Assembly (NCBI GenBank): GCA_030680355.1
Contig: JAUXVF010000031.1
Span: 248,001 to 312,000 of the forward strand
Direction of reading: 5' to 3'
DNA length: 64,000 bases
Source of the DNA: Caulobacter sp.
GTDB taxonomy: Bacteria > Pseudomonadota > Alphaproteobacteria > Caulobacterales > Caulobacteraceae
Shown here: one piece after another, positions 6,034 to 49,710 of the stretch
Numbering within the stretch: position 1 is the stretch's first letter
Layout: each line of letters begins with the position of its first letter
Made by a program: the position numbers and the translations under genes
Notes under the pieces: model-generated
Told to the model about the DNA's origin: nothing
Database searches by the model: none
The model's input: the letters and a program-made list of their open reading frames with translations, nothing else

Positions 6034-7454
6034 GACAGGGTCTCCTTCCAGCGCTTGATCTGGGCCCGAACCTGGCTCGGGGCCGTACCGCCATAGCTTA
6101 CCCGGCTCGCGGCCGAGGCGGCAGGGGTCAGGACCTTGAAAATGTCTTCGCCGATGCCCTGGTTGAGGGCCTGCAGTTCAGCCAGCGGCAGGCCGGCCAG
6201 ATCAACGCCCAGCTGCTCGGCCCGTTTGACCGCCGCGCCGGTGATATGGTGGGCGTCTCGGAACGGAAGGTCGAGGGTCCGCACCAGCCAGTCGGCCAGG
6301 TCGGTGGCGGTGGAGAATCCGGCGCCCGCCGCCGCCGCCATCTTCTCGATGTTCGGCTCAAGGTCGGCGACCATCCCGGCCATGGCCAGCAGGCTGAGCT
6401 CGAGGGCGTCGAAGGCCTCGAATACCGGAACCTTGTCCTCCTGCATGTCCTTGGAATAGGCCAGCGGCAGGCCCTTCATGACCACCGTCAGGCTGGTCAG
6501 CGAGCCCAGGATCCGGCCGACCTTGGCCCGCACCAGCTCGGCGGCGTCGGGATTCTTCTTCTGCGGCATGATCGAGCTGCCGGTGGTGAAGGCGTCGCCC
6601 AGCTTGATGAAGCCGAACTGCGGCGTCATCCAGATGACGATCTCCTCGGCCAGCCGCGACAGATGGGTGGCGCAGATGCTGGCCGCCGACAGGGCCTCCA
6701 GCGCGAAGTCGCGGGCCGAGACGCTGTCGAGGGAATTAGCCGTCGGCCGGTCAAAGCCGAGCGCCTTGGCGGTCATCTGCCGGTCGACAGGGAAGGGCGA
6801 CCCGGCCAGCGCCGCCGCGCCCAGCGGGCTCTCGTTCATCCGCGCCCGGGCGTCGCGGAAGCGCGAGGCGTCGCGGCCGAACATCTCGACATAGGCCATC
6901 AGGTGGTGGCCGAAGGTGACCGGCTGGGCCGGCTGCAGATGGGTGAAGCCCGGCATCAGAGTGTCGGCATGGGCTTCTGCCCGGGTGACCAGGACCGTCT
7001 GCAGCGCGACCAGCTGGGCGGCGGAGCGGTCGCAGGCCTCGCGCACCCAGAGGCGGAAATCGAGCGCCACCTGGTCGTTGCGCGAACGGGCGGTGTGCAG
7101 CCGGCCGGCCACCGGGCCGATCATCTCGCGCAGCCGGGCCTCCACATTCATGTGGATGTCCTCGAACTCGTCGCGGAACGGGAAGGTCCCGGCGGCCATT
7201 TCCGCGGCGATGGCGTCAAGGCCGCTCTGGATTTGCGCCTCCGCTTCGCTAGATATGACCCCGGTCTTCGCCAGCATGGCGGCGTGGGCCTTCGATCCGG
7301 CGATATCCTGGCCCGCCAGGCGCTTGTCGAAGCTGATCGAGACATTGATCGCCTGCATCAGGGCGTCGGGGCGCGCCGAGAACCGTCCGCCCCACATCGC
7401 CTGTCCGCCCGCGGCCGCCTGGTCGCCGGGCCTGTTCGAAGGTTTATCGGTCAT
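6030..7454 (-). CDS. argH: Argininosuccinate lyase
   Basis: 474 aa. It splits argininosuccinate into arginine and fumarate. The fumarase/aspartase signature [12 protein letters not shown] is near residue 290, with the N-terminal [11 protein letters not shown] and the [12 protein letters not shown] block near 120. The annotated ATG at 7454 directly abuts the tlpA ATG on the other strand. An internal ATG giving MWGGRF at residue 20 is an alternative start, since many ArgH proteins begin close to that motif. First gene of an arginine/lysine operon. Confidence 0.96.
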
Positions 7455-27978: not shown

Positions 27979-28097
27979 GGGGCAGGGGGCCGCATACCCA
28001 GGTCATGGTCAGCCGCGCCGAAGGCGCGTGTCGAAGCACGCAACCCTGCGTCAGCCCGCCTTGCCCCGGCCCACGCCCGCGCCTAGTCTGCCCGCGT

Positions 28098-30193
<2,096 letters not shown>

Positions 30194-30921: not shown

Positions 30922-30962
30922 CAGTGTCACCGTAATCCCAGTGTCACCGTAATCCGTAATCC
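30922..30962. repeat. Tandem 17-mer at the island border
   Basis: CAGTGTCACCGTAATCC occurs twice in tandem (30922-30938, 30939-30955) followed by a partial third unit GTAATCC. It abuts the thiC-derived repeat. Confidence 0.85.
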
Positions 30963-30987
30963 CCGAGATGAGCGCGAAGTTCCGGGC
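30963..30987. repeat. 25-nt copy of the thiC 3' end
   Basis: CCGAGATGAGCGCGAAGTTC and the following CGGGC match thiC 30135-30159 exactly. An 11-G run follows, then the low-GC ATPase gene begins within a few bases. It marks the left edge of the foreign insert. Confidence 0.9.
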
Positions 30988-31003
30988 CGGGGGGGGGGGT
31001 GGT

Positions 31004-33123
31004 CTATGCGCCGTCCACGTCCAAATCGGCTGCCGAGGGATCGCTAAAATAGGCCGTCTTCGCTGTATCAGTCAGTTCGTATCGATAAACGTTTCCAGCG
31101 TTGACCCTCATCACCAACTCCCGTTCCGCGAGATGTTTCGCGCGTCGGCCAACTAGCTGGCCGGAGCAGTCGAGCTCCCCCGCAATCTCGGCAGCCACCA
31201 TGGTGCGGTCTTCGCTATGAAGCGTTTGTAGTATGCCGATCTCTGCGTCTGGTAGCAGCAACTCGGGTCGAACGGCGTCTAGGGCATCTCCATATTTCTT
31301 CGACAGATTGACGACCGAGCACTGCCCTTCCGGGCAGTCGGGGCACTGCATTCGAAACCGCTGGAGGGCAGGCAACATGCTGAGGTCGAATTCGGACCCG
31401 CAGTTGTTGCACTTAATCTCTTGATTTTGGTGCAGGTAGGAGCTGACTACGCCGTTGTAATCAAACCGACGATCAACGAAGTAGAGTCGGTCTTCTCGAC
31501 GCTCGCTGGGTCGACCAAAGGCAATCTGATATTTCGTGCATAGCCCGTAGTTCAAAGCAAAGACGGATACTCGCTTTCCGCCACGATCAGACTGTTCAAA
31601 ATACTTGGTCAAAAAGAACGATAACTCTAGAGATTGAAATATGTCTTCGAGGTCACTCGAAACATAGAAATGACTCGAATATGGCCGCGATCGGCTACCG
31701 CTAGAGTGATCTCTGGAGCCTTCCTGCCTAATTGATCGCGCCTTAGATACAACAGACTCTAGTAGTTCTTTTAGGGAGTATACGGAAGACCGCTCTTCGA
31801 ATGCAACTCGGTATCGACCATTGGCAAAAAATGGAGATACCTTTTCTTCGTAATATCTTTGTGCGGCATCTTGAATCGATGCAACCCCGACAACCTGATT
31901 GTAAATCAGGTTGCTCTCGTGAGCGTAAAGTAGGATGTGGCCAAGAGTCCGCGGATTGGCCATCGAGGCGTAAAAGAGATTTCGCCAGAAATCTCCACCT
32001 TTGGACCCGAAATATATATCCGGCGTGGTCTTTGCAAAATGCGCCAGCCGTTTCTCGACAACTCGCTTCGTGAAGTCGATGGCTTTCTCTTCCATCTTGG
32101 TCACACCAGCCGAACCGTAAAGCCCATAAATGTCGAGGGTTACCTCTTCGACCTTCGTATTATCCAGATCTCCGAGGTACACCCGACCAGGGTATGCGGC
32201 AATTTTGAACTTAATGAAATCAGACCATCTTGAGAGGGGGGCGATCAAAGCATCCACAAGCAGCCGCATGGCGTCTCTCGGAAGCTCGGAGAAATCGTCC
32301 AGGAATATATAGAGGTTGCGTATTCCTATGGCGGCAAGCAGCTTCTGAAGCTCGCGAATGACATCGTTAACTCCGATTACCCTCATAAGCAGCTGCGTAT
32401 AGACGTCCTCTCCACCTGTTTCCGTGGAGTTGCCGTTAGATGACTCATAGCCCGCCTCAGCGCCAACCGATTCTGGACTCGCGCCCGCCTTAACGAATAA
32501 ATTATTGCTTTTTGAGTTCTTGATTGCCTCCGTTGCCTTGCAAGAAACGGTTACAAAACCTTCAATATTCTCGTAGTCTGGCTCATCTAGCCGCTTAATA
32601 ACCTCGTCGAGCCCAGAAAATACTTCGGCCGACGAGCCGATCATTTGATCACGAAGACGCGTAAGAAAACTTTGCTCGACTTGAGTCTTAAGTTCATCTC
32701 GAATATCAACGATTAGGCATTTCAGAAACCGCTTGTATAGCAGAAACTTCTGTACCTGATCCGAACTAAGAGCTGTAGCGAGCTCGTCGAGCCACCCGAA
32801 GTGACAGGATCGATTTGCGACGCCTCATAGACATTGCGAATATCCATGTAGGCCGAGATTGCGTTTGATTTCCCTTTGCGAATTTCATGCTGTACTCGTT
32901 GAAATACGGTAGATTTACCCGTGCCTTTTCGGCCCACGATAACGGTGGTGTTACTGGCTAAGAGGGTTTTAAAAACCTGCTCGTTGGGAAGTGGGTCCAC
33001 GTACAGCTTCTCGATCAGAGATCGATTTTTCTCGTCATTCAACTCTGAACGACTAAAAAGCTTCAGGGAGACGGCGGCTTTGTGAAAGCTGTCCAGCTGC
33101 TTGGGTGTGAATTGCAAAGCCAT
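31004..33123 (-). pseudogene. Low-GC P-loop ATPase with zinc ribbon and winged helix, frameshifted
   Basis: About 706 codons broken by one frameshift near 32785-32800. The 5' part (ORF 33123-32722) has MALQFTPKQLDSFHKAAVSL and Walker A VIVGRKGTGKST near residue 67. The 3' part (ORF up to 31004), read one frame back, continues as GWLDELATALSSDQVQKFLLYKRFL and runs into the M at 32644. It holds Walker B NLYIFLDDFSELP, a long helical region, a zinc ribbon (CNNCGSEFDL...MQCPDCPEGQC) and a C-terminal winged helix. The layout resembles STAND/AAA-type regulators or defence ATPases; I cannot name the family. Base composition is far more AT-rich than its neighbours. No slippery heptamer is evident, so a deletion or sequencing error is likelier than programmed shifting. 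Confidence 0.75.
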
Positions 33124-33512
33124 GTGTGCCCGGTTCTCGATTTGGCAATGAGATTAGCATGACGCATTGCGACGGCCACCCTTCAGGCAGTTGAAGCAGT
33201 AGATATCCAATTGCGCGGCTGACATCCATTCATGCCCACTCTCGTCCTCCTCGCCGAGCAGGAAATGGGGGCACACATTCTTTTCCGCCCCCATCACCCC
33301 CTTCATCTCATGCCCAGATCATCGCCGACCGGCCCGGCCTCGTCGCGGCGGCGGCCGGTGGCCGCCGCATACGGCGCGGAGATCGCGCCGTCGCGCCTCA
33401 GCTCAAGGTCGGCGCTTGGCGCCGCCGCGCGGCGGTCGCCCCGCCGGGGCGAGGTCGGTGGACGGACCGGTTCCGTCCGGCGCGCCGGCCGGCAGGAGAT
33501 CGAGGGCGCGGT
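33124..33512. other. Right flank of the low-GC insert, no gene seen
   Basis: The first 110 nt are still AT-rich and would hold the ATPase promoter; GC then rises to host level by about 33300. ORFs on both strands here (33232-33570 plus, 33403-33630 minus) run through repeat DNA and have no recognisable protein features. Confidence 0.6.
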
Positions 33513-33673
33513 CCCTTCTCCCCTTGCGGGAGAAGGGGACCCTGCGGAGCAGGGTCGGATGAGGGGTTGAAGACTGGGGCCGCTTCGACAGGCTGTCGAC
33601 CATCCCTCTACCGCCGGCGCGACCCCTCATCCGTCAGGCTTCGCCTGACACCTTCTCCCGCAAGGGGAGAAGG
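33513..33673. repeat. Composite palindromic element, copy 1
   Basis: About 160 nt: left hairpin CCCTTCTCCCCTTGCGGGAGAAGG, CCTGCGGAGCAGGGTCGGATGAGGGGTTGAAGAC, a variable linker, then inverted right half GACCCCTCATCCGTCAGGCTTCGCCTGACACCTTCTCCCGCAAGGGGAGAAGG. The same order and much of the linker recur at 34248-34409. Confidence 0.9.
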
Positions 33674-33684
33674 AAATTCCCCGC

Positions 33685-34167: not shown

Positions 34168-34247
34168 GGTCGTCCCCCTTCTGTTTTGAGGGACGGACTA
34201 TTGGAGGGCGCTTCCGCCCTGTCAAACCAAGGGGGCAGGCAGGCAAT

Positions 34248-34409
34248 CCCTTCTCCCCTTGCGGGAGAAGGTGGCCCTGCGGAGCAGGGTCGGATGAGGG
34301 GTTGAAGACAGGGGCCGCTTCGGACGGTCTGTCCGCTGCGCCTGTATCGCCGGCTCGACCCCTCATCCGTCAGGCTTCGCCTGACACCTTCTCCCGCAAG
34401 GGGAGAAGG
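34248..34409. repeat. Composite palindromic element, copy 2
   Basis: Same architecture and orientation as copy 1 at 33513: CCCTTCTCCCCTTGCGGGAGAAGG, GTGGCCCTGCGGAGCAGGGTCGGATGAGGGGTTGAAGACAGGGGCCGCTTCG, linker, then the inverted half ending CTTCTCCCGCAAGGGGAGAAGG. Fills the gap between the SnoaL and FrnE genes. Confidence 0.9.
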
Positions 34410-34410
34410 A

Positions 34411-47083: not shown

Positions 47084-47159
47084 GGGCCCGTAGCTCAATG
47101 GTTAGAGCCGACCGCTCATAACGGTCTGGTTGCAGGTTCGAGTCCTGCCGGGCCTACCA
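47084..47159 (+). tRNA. tRNA with anticodon CAT, probably tRNA-Ile2 (or elongator tRNA-Met)
   Basis: 76 nt with encoded CCA. Acceptor GGGCCCG pairs with CGGGCCT (first pair G-U), D-arm TAGCTCAATGGTTAGAGCC, anticodon arm GACCG-CTCATAA-CGGTC, T-arm GCAGG-TTCGAGT-CCTGC. The D-loop and loop CTCATAA resemble E. coli ileX, whose C34 becomes lysidine; Met cannot be excluded. An integrase gene follows at 111 nt, so the 3' end is a likely attachment site. Confidence 0.92.
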
Positions 47160-47172
47160 AGGGGGTTTTTCA

Positions 47173-47243
47173 TTAGTCCCAGGAAGTGCCATAACTCTGC
47201 TTTCGTAAGGGTTTCCAGATTTCGTTAGTCCCAGGAAGTGCCA
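47173..47243. repeat. Paired direct repeat TTAGTCCCAGGAAGTGCCA near the integrase start
   Basis: Two exact 19-nt copies at 47173-47191 and 47225-47243. A near-inverted copy lies beyond the integrase at 49171-49190 (17 of 19 positions). They may be integrase arm-type sites or element ends. Confidence 0.8.
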
Positions 47244-47269
47244 GGAGGACCCAAGCGCTGGCGGTACAG

Positions 47270-48499
47270 ATGGCGGTATCGTATAAGGTCGTACCGCCAG
47301 AAGGACCGCGAATCGTGTCGCTCAGCGAAACTGCCTGCAGGAATGCTCGCGCCCGCGAAAAGCCCTACAAGATTCGCGACGGCGATGGGATGTACCTCCT
47401 CGTTCCGACGAGTGGTTCTCGGCTCTGGCGTCTCGACTATCGGTTTGATGGGAAGCGGAAGACCCTCGCGCTAGGCGTCTACCCGATGATCGGACTGGCC
47501 GAGGCCCGGGAGCGCCGGCTCACAGCGAGAACATGGCTGGCGAAGGGCGTTGACCCTGCCAAGGCCGGCGAAGTCGACGTCGACAACAGCTTTGAGGACG
47601 TGGCTCGGGCGTGGTTCGAAGGGCAACGCGCCAAATGGGTAGACGGCTACGCTGATCGGGTCTGGTCTCGCCTCGTTGGCGACGTCTTCCCCGCCCTGGG
47701 CGAGCGCTCTGTCGACGCAATCGAGGCCCCTGAGGTCCTCAAGGCGTTGCGGGCGATCGAGGGTAGAGGAGCCTTCGAAACAGCCAAGCGAGTCGGCCAG
47801 TATGTGGGTCAGGTGTTTCGCTATGCCATCGCGACCGGAATGGTGCGTCGCGACCCCACCGCGGATCTGCGCGGGGCCCTTCACGCCTCCCCCAGGAAGA
47901 AGCGTCGGGCGAGCGTGAAGACCCGAGACATCCCCGACTTCATCACGCGACTGCGGCGCTACCAAGGGGAGGAGCAGACCCGTCTTGCCGTCGAGTTCAT
48001 CATGCACACCTTCGTTCGGACCAGCGAGCTCCGCCTGGCGCGTCGCCAGGAGTTCGAGGACTTGGGCGGCGCGGCGCCGCTGTGGCGCATCCCCGCCGAG
48101 CGCATGAAGATGACACGAGAGCACCTTGTGCCGCTTACGCCCCAATCTGTCGTCTTGTTGCACCGGCTGCTCGACTTGGCCCGAGGGAGTGATTTGCTTC
48201 TGCCCAGCGACACGGGAAAGGGCGTCGTGAGCGAAAACACGATGCTGTATGCCCTCTACCGCATCGGCTATCACGGCAGGGCGACGATCCACGGTCTGCG
48301 CGGGACGGCCTCGACCGTGCTGAATGAACAGGGGTTTAACCAAGACTGGATCGAGCGCCAACTGGCCCACGTTCCCGGCGACAGTGTGCGGGCGGCCTAC
48401 AACAGCGCCGAATGGTTGGCCGAACGCCGCACGATGATGCTCTGGTATTCGGATTTTCTGACGCGCCAGGGTGAGATCGGCATGCTGTTGAGCCAATAG
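47270..48499 (+). CDS. Tyrosine recombinase (P4-type integrase)
   Basis: 409 aa. The N-terminal DUF4102-type arm-binding domain reads LSETACRNARAREKPYKIRDGDGMYLLVPTSGSRLWRLDYRFDGKRKTLALGVYPMIGLAEARER. The catalytic set is present: Arg in FVRTSELRLARRQEF, HGLRGTASTVLNEQGF (HxxR), LAHVPGDSVRAAYNSAEWL (His, then the nucleophile Tyr). It catalyses site-specific integration and excision, here at the adjoining tRNA gene. No excisionase is visible. The GTG/TTG choices near the start are uncertain; the ATG at 47270 has no strong RBS. Confidence 0.93.
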   Translation: MAVSYKVVPPEGPRIVSLSETACRNARAREKPYKIRDGDGMYLLVPTSGSRLWRLDYRFDGKRKTLALGVYPMIGLAEARERRLTARTWLAKGVDPAKAGEVDVDNSFEDVARAWFEGQRAKWVDGYADRVWSRLVGDVFPALGERSVDAIEAPEVLKALRAIEGRGAFETAKRVGQYVGQVFRYAIATGMVRRDPTADLRGALHASPRKKRRASVKTRDIPDFITRLRRYQGEEQTRLAVEFIMHTFVRTSELRLARRQEFEDLGGAAPLWRIPAERMKMTREHLVPLTPQSVVLLHRLLDLARGSDLLLPSDTGKGVVSENTMLYALYRIGYHGRATIHGLRGTASTVLNEQGFNQDWIERQLAHVPGDSVRAAYNSAEWLAERRTMMLWYSDFLTRQGEIGMLLSQ

Positions 48500-48618
48500 G
48501 GCTCACGCAAAGCCCAAGAACCGGGGGCGAATGCCTGTTATCTATTGGTCGTATTCCAACTGAATCGAACGACATATTGCTCAGCCCGCCAGAACGACAG
48601 CCTTAGGCGCAGCCACTC

Positions 48619-48762
48619 ATGAAGAACGGAGACCCCATAGTCGGAGGACTTCGATTGGCCGGGATTATTCTCGCATTCGTTATGCTCCTAGGCGGAGACG
48701 TCGTATCCGCAGCGCTTGTAGGAATCATTGTCTTCCTGTTCACGCCATATTTGCGCGGCTGA
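48619..48762 (+). CDS. 47-residue hydrophobic membrane ORF
   Basis: Not in the ORF track. ATG at 48619 gives MKNGDPIVGGLRLAGIILAFVMLLGGDVVSAALVGIIVFLFTPYLRG-TGA, two hydrophobic stretches with a short Asp-containing turn. It lies 119 nt after the integrase stop. No clear RBS is seen, which lowers confidence. If real, it resembles small holin- or toxin-like membrane peptides of mobile elements; the function is not established. Confidence 0.45.
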   Translation: MKNGDPIVGGLRLAGIILAFVMLLGGDVVSAALVGIIVFLFTPYLRG

Positions 48763-48964
48763 CGTTCAAATCTTGCCTCATGTTTCCGTTGAACTCGTTT
48801 CCGGGGCAGCGAGTTTCCCGTCTCACGGCTGAACGGGGCGGCCGCTGCTGTCGACCTGGGCAGGCGTGACGCACGGCCGCACCGCATCCCGCCGCACCGC
48901 GTGGAAAAGCGATTATCTCGCATCATTCGTCAGCGTCTCACCTCGCCCCGAGTCCGCGCGGTGC

Positions 48965-48985
48965 AAACGTCGATAATTATCGAAC
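48965..48985 (+). repeat. Iteron-like palindrome, copy 1
   Basis: AAACGTCGATAATTATCGAA plus C; the core TCGATAATTATCGA is a perfect 14-nt palindrome. It overlaps a second palindrome CGATTTAAATCG at 48985-48996. Confidence 0.9.
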
Positions 48986-49170
48986 GATTTAAATCGATCT
49001 TTTGCGATGCGTGACGCGACGCACCCACACGCACGCGATTTCATCAACAATTTCAATAGGTTATGTGGCTTTGGGTCCCTCTTGGCGGTATCGCGGGGGA
49101 CGGGGGGCGCTGAGCCGCGTTCTCTGAGGGTTTTCAAAAACTACTAATGCCCTTGGGCTTTGGCACCTCC

Positions 49171-49190
49171 TGGCACCTCCTGGCACTAAT
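49171..49190 (-). repeat. Inverted counterpart of the integrase-proximal repeat
   Basis: TGGCACCTCCTGGCACTAAT matches the reverse complement of the 47173/47225 repeat at 17 of 19 positions. It closes a segment of about 2 kb holding the integrase and the small membrane ORF. Confidence 0.65.
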
Positions 49191-49535
49191 GAGGATGCGA
49201 TCGACCCGAGGCCAGAACAGGCGGAACAGGCTCTAATGCCCCTCAAAATAACCTGTTCCGGCTGCAACCCCCTTATTTCATTGGCTTTGGAACTACTGGA
49301 ACAGGTGGAACAGCTTTTTATATAGACTCTCATTTTAGGGGGTGCTTTTGAAGCAAGCAAAACACTGGCCGAGAGAAAATGAATTAGGGCTGTGGAGAGA
49401 GTTTATAGGAAACAGGGTGACTCCTGTTCCACCCTGTTCCACCCATTGAATTAATTGAGGAAACCCCGGAACAGGAATCTGCAGCCTCCCGAGCCTGTTC
49501 CACCAAATCTGGTAACGCGGCAGCGAGGTGTGCAG

Positions 49536-49632
49536 AAACGTCGATAATTATCGAACTTTTGGGTGATTTCTGGAAACGTCGATAATTATCGAACTTCTGC
49601 CCGAGGCATGGAAACGTCGATAATTATCGAAC
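49536..49632 (+). repeat. Iteron-like palindromes, copies 2-4, 38-nt period
   Basis: AAACGTCGATAATTATCGAA plus C at 49536-49556, 49574-49594 and 49612-49632. All are in the same orientation and exactly 38 nt apart. Copies 3 and 4 also share the flank TTCTGC. Confidence 0.92.
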
Positions 49633-49710
49633 TTCTGCAAAGTAGCCCGCCATGGGGATTCCCATGGACCTGCCGAGGTCACTCTTTCGAGGACAACTCG
49701 GGGACAACAC

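Follow-up and report, generated by a model that had tools for sequence, protein, structure and literature searches.

What does a lone ATPase gene on a small, low-GC insert do in a Caulobacter genome, and why does it lie downstream of thiC? The question arises from a 64,000-nt stretch of Caulobacter sp. DNA (hereafter, the window), in which positions 31004–33123 have a GC content of 49.95%, compared with 68% for the whole window and 64–73% in the flanking kilobases (Table 1). We consider it likely that the insert carries a single horizontally acquired candidate anti-phage gene, encoding an ORC-like, putatively DNA-binding ATPase that would act without partner genes.

Table 1. Features of the thiC region and the low-GC insert in window coordinates
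Feature	Position	Strand
TPP riboswitch upstream of thiC	28092-28200	
thiC, intact, 639 aa (core gene anchoring the variable site)	28274..30193	+
Host gene, 170 aa	30377..30889	+
Two tandem CAGTGTCACCGTAATCC copies, REP-like	30922..30955	+
Copy of the thiC 3' end (32/34 nt identical to 30135-30168)	30963..30996	+
Low-GC insert with one ORC/Cdc6/STAND-like ATPase gene (predicted fold), ~700 aa, split by one frame change	31004..33123	-
C-terminal part of the ATPase gene, from helical insertion to winged helix	31004..32797	-
Stretch in which the reading frame shifts relative to intact relatives	32790..32824	-
N-terminal part of the ATPase gene, conserved leader block and Walker A (GRKGTGKST)	32794..33123	-
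Right border, copy of the dispersed long inverted repeat CCCTTCATCTCATGCC...GAGATCGAGGG (right end set by eye)	33299..33506	+

A divided ATPase gene

The original prediction described the insert as compositionally foreign and as holding a single gene for a protein with Walker A and B motifs, a zinc ribbon and a C-terminal winged helix, in a frame continuous except for one shift; all of these features were recovered. On the minus strand, an open reading frame of 133 aa (33123–32722), which includes the Walker A motif, is followed by one of 546 aa (32644–31004), the frame of which is already open from position 32824. The two open frames thus overlap by ~100 bases (32722–32824), and a single frame change therefore suffices to join them. 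Indeed, intact full-length relatives align colinearly through the overlap region, indicating that the gene is divided by one frame change. The larger piece contains the helical insertion, the Walker B motif (LYIFLDDFSEL), a sensor-like motif (KIAAYPGRVY), an NPR motif, the zinc ribbon with its four cysteines (CNNC...CPDC) and a MarR-like C-terminal winged helix. Because Walker A resides in the N-terminal piece and Walker B, the zinc ribbon and the winged helix in the other, neither piece should work alone. Given that the gene is split in the assembly, the window copy is probably inactive, having been either recently lost or wrongly assembled.

Alternatively, the gene could be intact in life, with the frame change being an assembly error or with the full product made by ribosomal frameshifting, a reading that we regard as possible but rather unlikely. 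The window gene retains 66 of the 67 columns that are invariant in 21 relatives, far above chance, and contains no further stop. However, the frame overlap includes neither a canonical -1 slippery heptamer nor a homopolymer of four or more bases, so that programmed frameshifting and a typical homopolymer error are both unsupported, and host genes nearby, such as thiC, are unbroken in the same assembly.

To characterize the fold, we turned to the related protein from Rhizobium (L012), for which an AlphaFold2 model was obtained with a mean pLDDT of 76 and a pTM of 0.72. Its best matches in the PDB were human ORC, the archaeal STAND ATPase SSO1545 and Cdc6/Orc1 on origin DNA (E values from 1e-5 to 2e-4), all of them partial (TM-score <0.5), and the model also resembles TnsC. 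The Pfam model PF24389 (ORC-CDC6-like) scored 26.8 bits, with a cut-off of 27. The protein is accordingly predicted to adopt an ORC/Cdc6/STAND-like fold, comprising a P-loop ATPase with Walker A and B, lid helices and a winged helix. The C-terminal winged helix is similar to those of Lrs14, MarR and Csa3 regulators (Pfam, NCBIfam and PDB), and two features are specific to the family: a helical insertion with a disordered loop ahead of Walker B, and the zinc ribbon, which separates the lid part from the final winged helix. We recognized no nuclease, NADase or membrane effector domain in the protein, and a search of the viral fold library produced no match at E <0.001. The fold and motifs suggest a DNA-binding role.

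Relatives and the candidate role in defence

Members of the family occur in Sphingomonas (68% and 64% identity), Rhizobium (65%), Mycobacterium (43%) and Maricaulis (35%), with further ones in Clostridium, Halobacillus, Planctomycetaceae, Desulfuromonadaceae, Gallionella, Rhodanobacter, Flavobacterium and others, as well as in four IMG/VR contigs and on a 6-kb mobilizable Enterobacter plasmid (L010); tblastn against phage records yielded none. Counting the window's own genome each time, the family is present in 1 of 75 genomes of the genus, 2 of 299 of the order and 1 of 399 of the phylum. Hence, the family is broad across phyla yet rare, and intact copies exist outside the window. This rare, patchy distribution and the deviating base composition show, at the level of sequence, that the gene arrived horizontally.

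Among described models, the nearest were NF053860 (DS41_1 anti-phage) and its relative NF047389 (Sll1717 family P-loop ATPase), both far below their cut-offs. NF053860 matches each half of the window gene weakly and in colinear order, and also 15 of the 21 relatives (8e-9 for L012); it scores 34.9 bits for the closest intact relative and 20–22 bits for the two pieces in the window, where the cut-off is 370. Its name suggests system DS-41 of DefensePredictor (PMC13092281). NF047389 aligns with the ATPase part of every one of the 21 relatives (best, 2.9e-14), with 48.2 bits for L012 and 31.4 bits for the N-terminal window piece, short of the cut-off of 75; a literature search on Sll1717 returned nothing relevant. 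The P-loop ATPase is common to the window family and DS41_1, and the N-terminal block corresponds, but the DS41_1 and Sll1717 models span 448 and 454 positions, respectively, whereas proteins of the window family reach ~700 aa, the ATPase being followed by the zinc ribbon and winged helix. The refuting outcome named in the original prediction did not occur, as no hit to a housekeeping family scored above cut-off, although the predicted fold is that of ORC/Cdc6. With ORC/Cdc6 initiators and SSO1545 the family has in common the predicted P-loop ATPase, lid and winged helix; unlike them, it possesses the long helical insertion with its disordered loop, the zinc ribbon and an extra C-terminal winged helix, and its distribution is mobile and patchy. 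The genomic setting, as read from sequence, argues against a role as an ORC/Cdc6 replication initiator.

The neighbourhoods of 22 loci were surveyed for genes within 5 kb, using PADLOC in three groups and on chosen genes singly. At least 5 of the 22 loci had PADLOC hits at E <1e-10, a raw count rather than an enrichment over a matched background: pAgo-like and RT-PolA (DRT-type) genes (L019), PDC-M63B (L024), a DpdF-like helicase (L025) and type III restriction-modification (L028 and L030). Additional hits to bSEFIR, PDC-S04, DrmD and PDC-M63A were obtained at the group level, the locus not being assigned. One copy (L032) sits at a prophage-like contig edge beside a CI-type repressor, as read by eye. 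Around the closest relatives (L011–L017, among them those of Sphingomonas, Rhizobium and Mycobacterium), a single weak PADLOC hit was found, and the ATPase gene stands alone among metabolic genes, as it does in the window. All-against-all BLASTP of the neighbours in 24 loci revealed no conserved partner gene. In two distant relatives (L018, 5607–9964, and L026, 2919–7577), genes of ~300 aa and ~1200 aa precede the ATPase gene by 19–24 nt; the ~1200-aa products are mutually unlike by BLASTP and have no PADLOC match.

The proposal of a phage-defence gene, originally guessed from composition and domains, thereby gains support from three independent lines of sequence-based evidence: relatives occur in defence islands, at a prophage edge and on a mobilizable plasmid; DS41_1 and its relative Sll1717 are the closest of the described models; and the insertion place is a hotspot of the genus filled with other defence-type genes (see below). 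It is weakened by the near absence of PADLOC neighbours around the closest relatives, by the fact that replication initiators have the ORC/Cdc6 fold as well, and by the position of the Enterobacter plasmid copy directly behind the rep gene. We infer a defence function with DNA as the ligand, in which the P-loop domain would bind ATP, and the winged helices and zinc ribbon would bind either DNA of foreign origin or an intermediate in phage replication. ATP-driven assembly on the bound DNA could then either block replication or expression directly or start an arrest; direct blocking is favoured because no nuclease, NADase or membrane effector domain is seen.

Two other functions have to be weighed. 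The protein could be a maintenance factor of plasmids or other mobile elements, that is, an ORC/Cdc6-like replication helper or partner, with the chromosomal copies representing leftovers of integrated elements. The similarity of the fold to ORC/Cdc6 and TnsC, the overlap of the plasmid copy with the end of rep, and the proximity of a Sphingomonas copy to an integrase and an IS91-type transposase would all fit such a role, which we nonetheless deem improbable: most copies are chromosomal and have no adjoining rep, par or transposase genes, several sit among defence genes, and the insertion place in the window is common to unrelated defence-type cargo. More doubtful still is an ATP-dependent STAND-type transcription regulator controlling some non-phage target through its winged helix; the C-terminal domain does match Lrs14, MarR and Csa3-type regulators, and STAND regulators such as MalT unite ATPase and DNA-binding domains, but no conserved adjoining partner or target gene exists in the 24 loci, and the patchy spread and defence neighbours are ill-suited to a housekeeping regulator.

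The thiC hotspot and its border repeat

We surveyed 47 thiC flanks of the genus together with that of the window and found that 11 of 48 genomes have a 500-bp bin with less than 57% GC in the first 3.5 kb behind thiC, as opposed to 1 of 43 at 3.5–7 kb. The cargo differs in each genome. Individual relatives carry a reverse transcriptase of the group II intron/retron type, an OLD/AriA/PtuA/GajA-like ATPase, a metacaspase-like (caspase-like) protein with a weakly TIR-like neighbour, or a DUF262/SspE-like protein; a Panacea-type pair, a P-loop protein, a GTPase pair and a restriction-type nuclease were recognized by eye only. The region downstream of thiC is a hotspot in the genus, with defence-type cargo that is exchanged between related species. 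No published hotspot at thiC was found in the literature.

In three genomes, including the window, the cargo gene is antiparallel to thiC and its stop codon is separated by 5–7 nt from a duplicate of the thiC 3' end (7 nt for the ATPase gene and the copy at 30963–30996). The duplicated ends measure 96 nt and 101 nt in the other two genomes and 31–34 nt in the window; the architecture is the same, but the window copy is short and located behind the 170-aa gene, which directly follows thiC in several relatives. In loci L075 and L070 (genomes G340 and G334), the duplicated thiC 3' ends both start 101 nt before the thiC stop and are preceded by a shared diverged thiC-like stretch, as if from a common element.

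The right border of the insert is a copy of a dispersed inverted repeat, the left arm of which, CCCTTCATCTCATGCC (beginning at 33299), occurs at the right cargo end in seven thiC loci. Eight related genomes contain 3–9 matches each. Over 1.5 kb on either side of 46 copies, GC content averages 61.5% where the cargo lies and 69.1% on the opposite flank; the cargo side is the lower in 37 of 44 cases and falls below 60% in 16, versus 1 for the opposite side (Wilcoxon test, P-value = 1.7e-6, which is optimistic because the orthologous copies included are not independent). Besides thiC, there are two clear anchors, typA and pnp, and low-GC cargo is found at repeat copies elsewhere, too. The gap from typA to the repeat is 185 nt in one genome (G191), where the slot is empty, and 1.8–3.7 kb in five others; that from pnp is 0.4–1.0 kb, with varying content. 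Thus, at thiC, typA and pnp, the same core-gene flank holds differing cargo in related genomes, the pattern by which core-gene hotspots are recognized.

The typA slot of the window's own genome (L125, C30:37000-49000) harbours, between typA and the border repeat, a retron-type reverse transcriptase (6052–7218; E = 1.6e-30 to the Ec86 RT) and, beside it, a gene for a 428-aa protein; no msr RNA was matched by Rfam in this locus. Proteins resembling SIR2 and HD-type enzymes were seen by eye in other slots, and the SIR2-like one (L127) had no PDB match by sequence. Elsewhere in the same genome (L124, C26:252000-266000), genes for proteins of 767 aa and 280 aa with 48–51% GC lie to the left of another copy of the repeat.

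Core-gene defence hotspots are known in Pseudomonas aeruginosa (PMC10250203) and E. coli (PMC10121019), and the thiC slot resembles them in that a core gene is flanked by strain-variable defence cargo. In contrast to those hotspots, the slots described here are small, with one or two genes, no integrase is present in the cargo examined, and one inverted-repeat border is common to slots at different core genes. The sequences do not support an integron border: no IntI-type integrase (TIGR02249) exceeded the cut-off in any of the eight genomes, only XerC/D-level matches being present, and tandem repeats occur at one place only (L128) among the 46 copies, with no cassette arrays. Literature on this palindrome in Caulobacter yielded nothing relevant. 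Cargo could enter by recombination at the repeats, through an integrase supplied in trans, or simply because insertions at these ends are tolerated. As a tentative proposal, itself unlikely, the inverted repeat would be a recognition or exchange site of an unrecognised route that collects single defence genes as integrase-free cargo in one bacterial clade, placing them so that a core-gene 3' end (of thiC, typA or pnp) lies on one side and the repeat on the other.

Other repeats and elements were observed in passing. In the window's own genome, a 249-nt repeat with the ends GATTACGGTGACACTGTACGAAA (L064, C1:5697-9540) is present in three copies, along with single copies of its motif, and lies between an RHS-type C-terminal gene, a HigB/HigA-like pair and a low-GC stretch; this motif, which flanks cargo there, recurs twice in the window at 30922–30955. 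Repeats of the form CCTTCTCCC(GC)AAGGGGAGAAGG lie at 33512–33674 and 34247–34410, and at several intergenic places in the window and the genus. Farther downstream, a tRNA-Met (47084–47159) precedes a 409-aa tyrosine integrase-like ORF (47270–48499), behind which a low-GC stretch (54–56%) extends over 48.5–50 kb of the window; the region 47084–49700 is a remnant of another integrated element.

Significance for the family and the clade

With this insert, a family of broad range but rare occurrence joins the single-gene defence candidates. In it, an ORC/Cdc6-like ATPase is combined with putative zinc-ribbon and winged-helix DNA binding, a domain build that suggests a sensor that would act directly on DNA. 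Neither the hotspot downstream of thiC nor the dispersed border repeat had been foreseen in the original prediction, and a repeat common to several defence-type slots is a more surprising result than the defence reading of the ATPase; we rank it above the new family in importance. The repeat provides a sequence handle that marks low-GC defence-type genes in many slots of the clade, so that unknown defence genes could be sought through the repeat instead of through known neighbours, and it turns the gain and loss of single genes in small slots without an integrase into a testable question.
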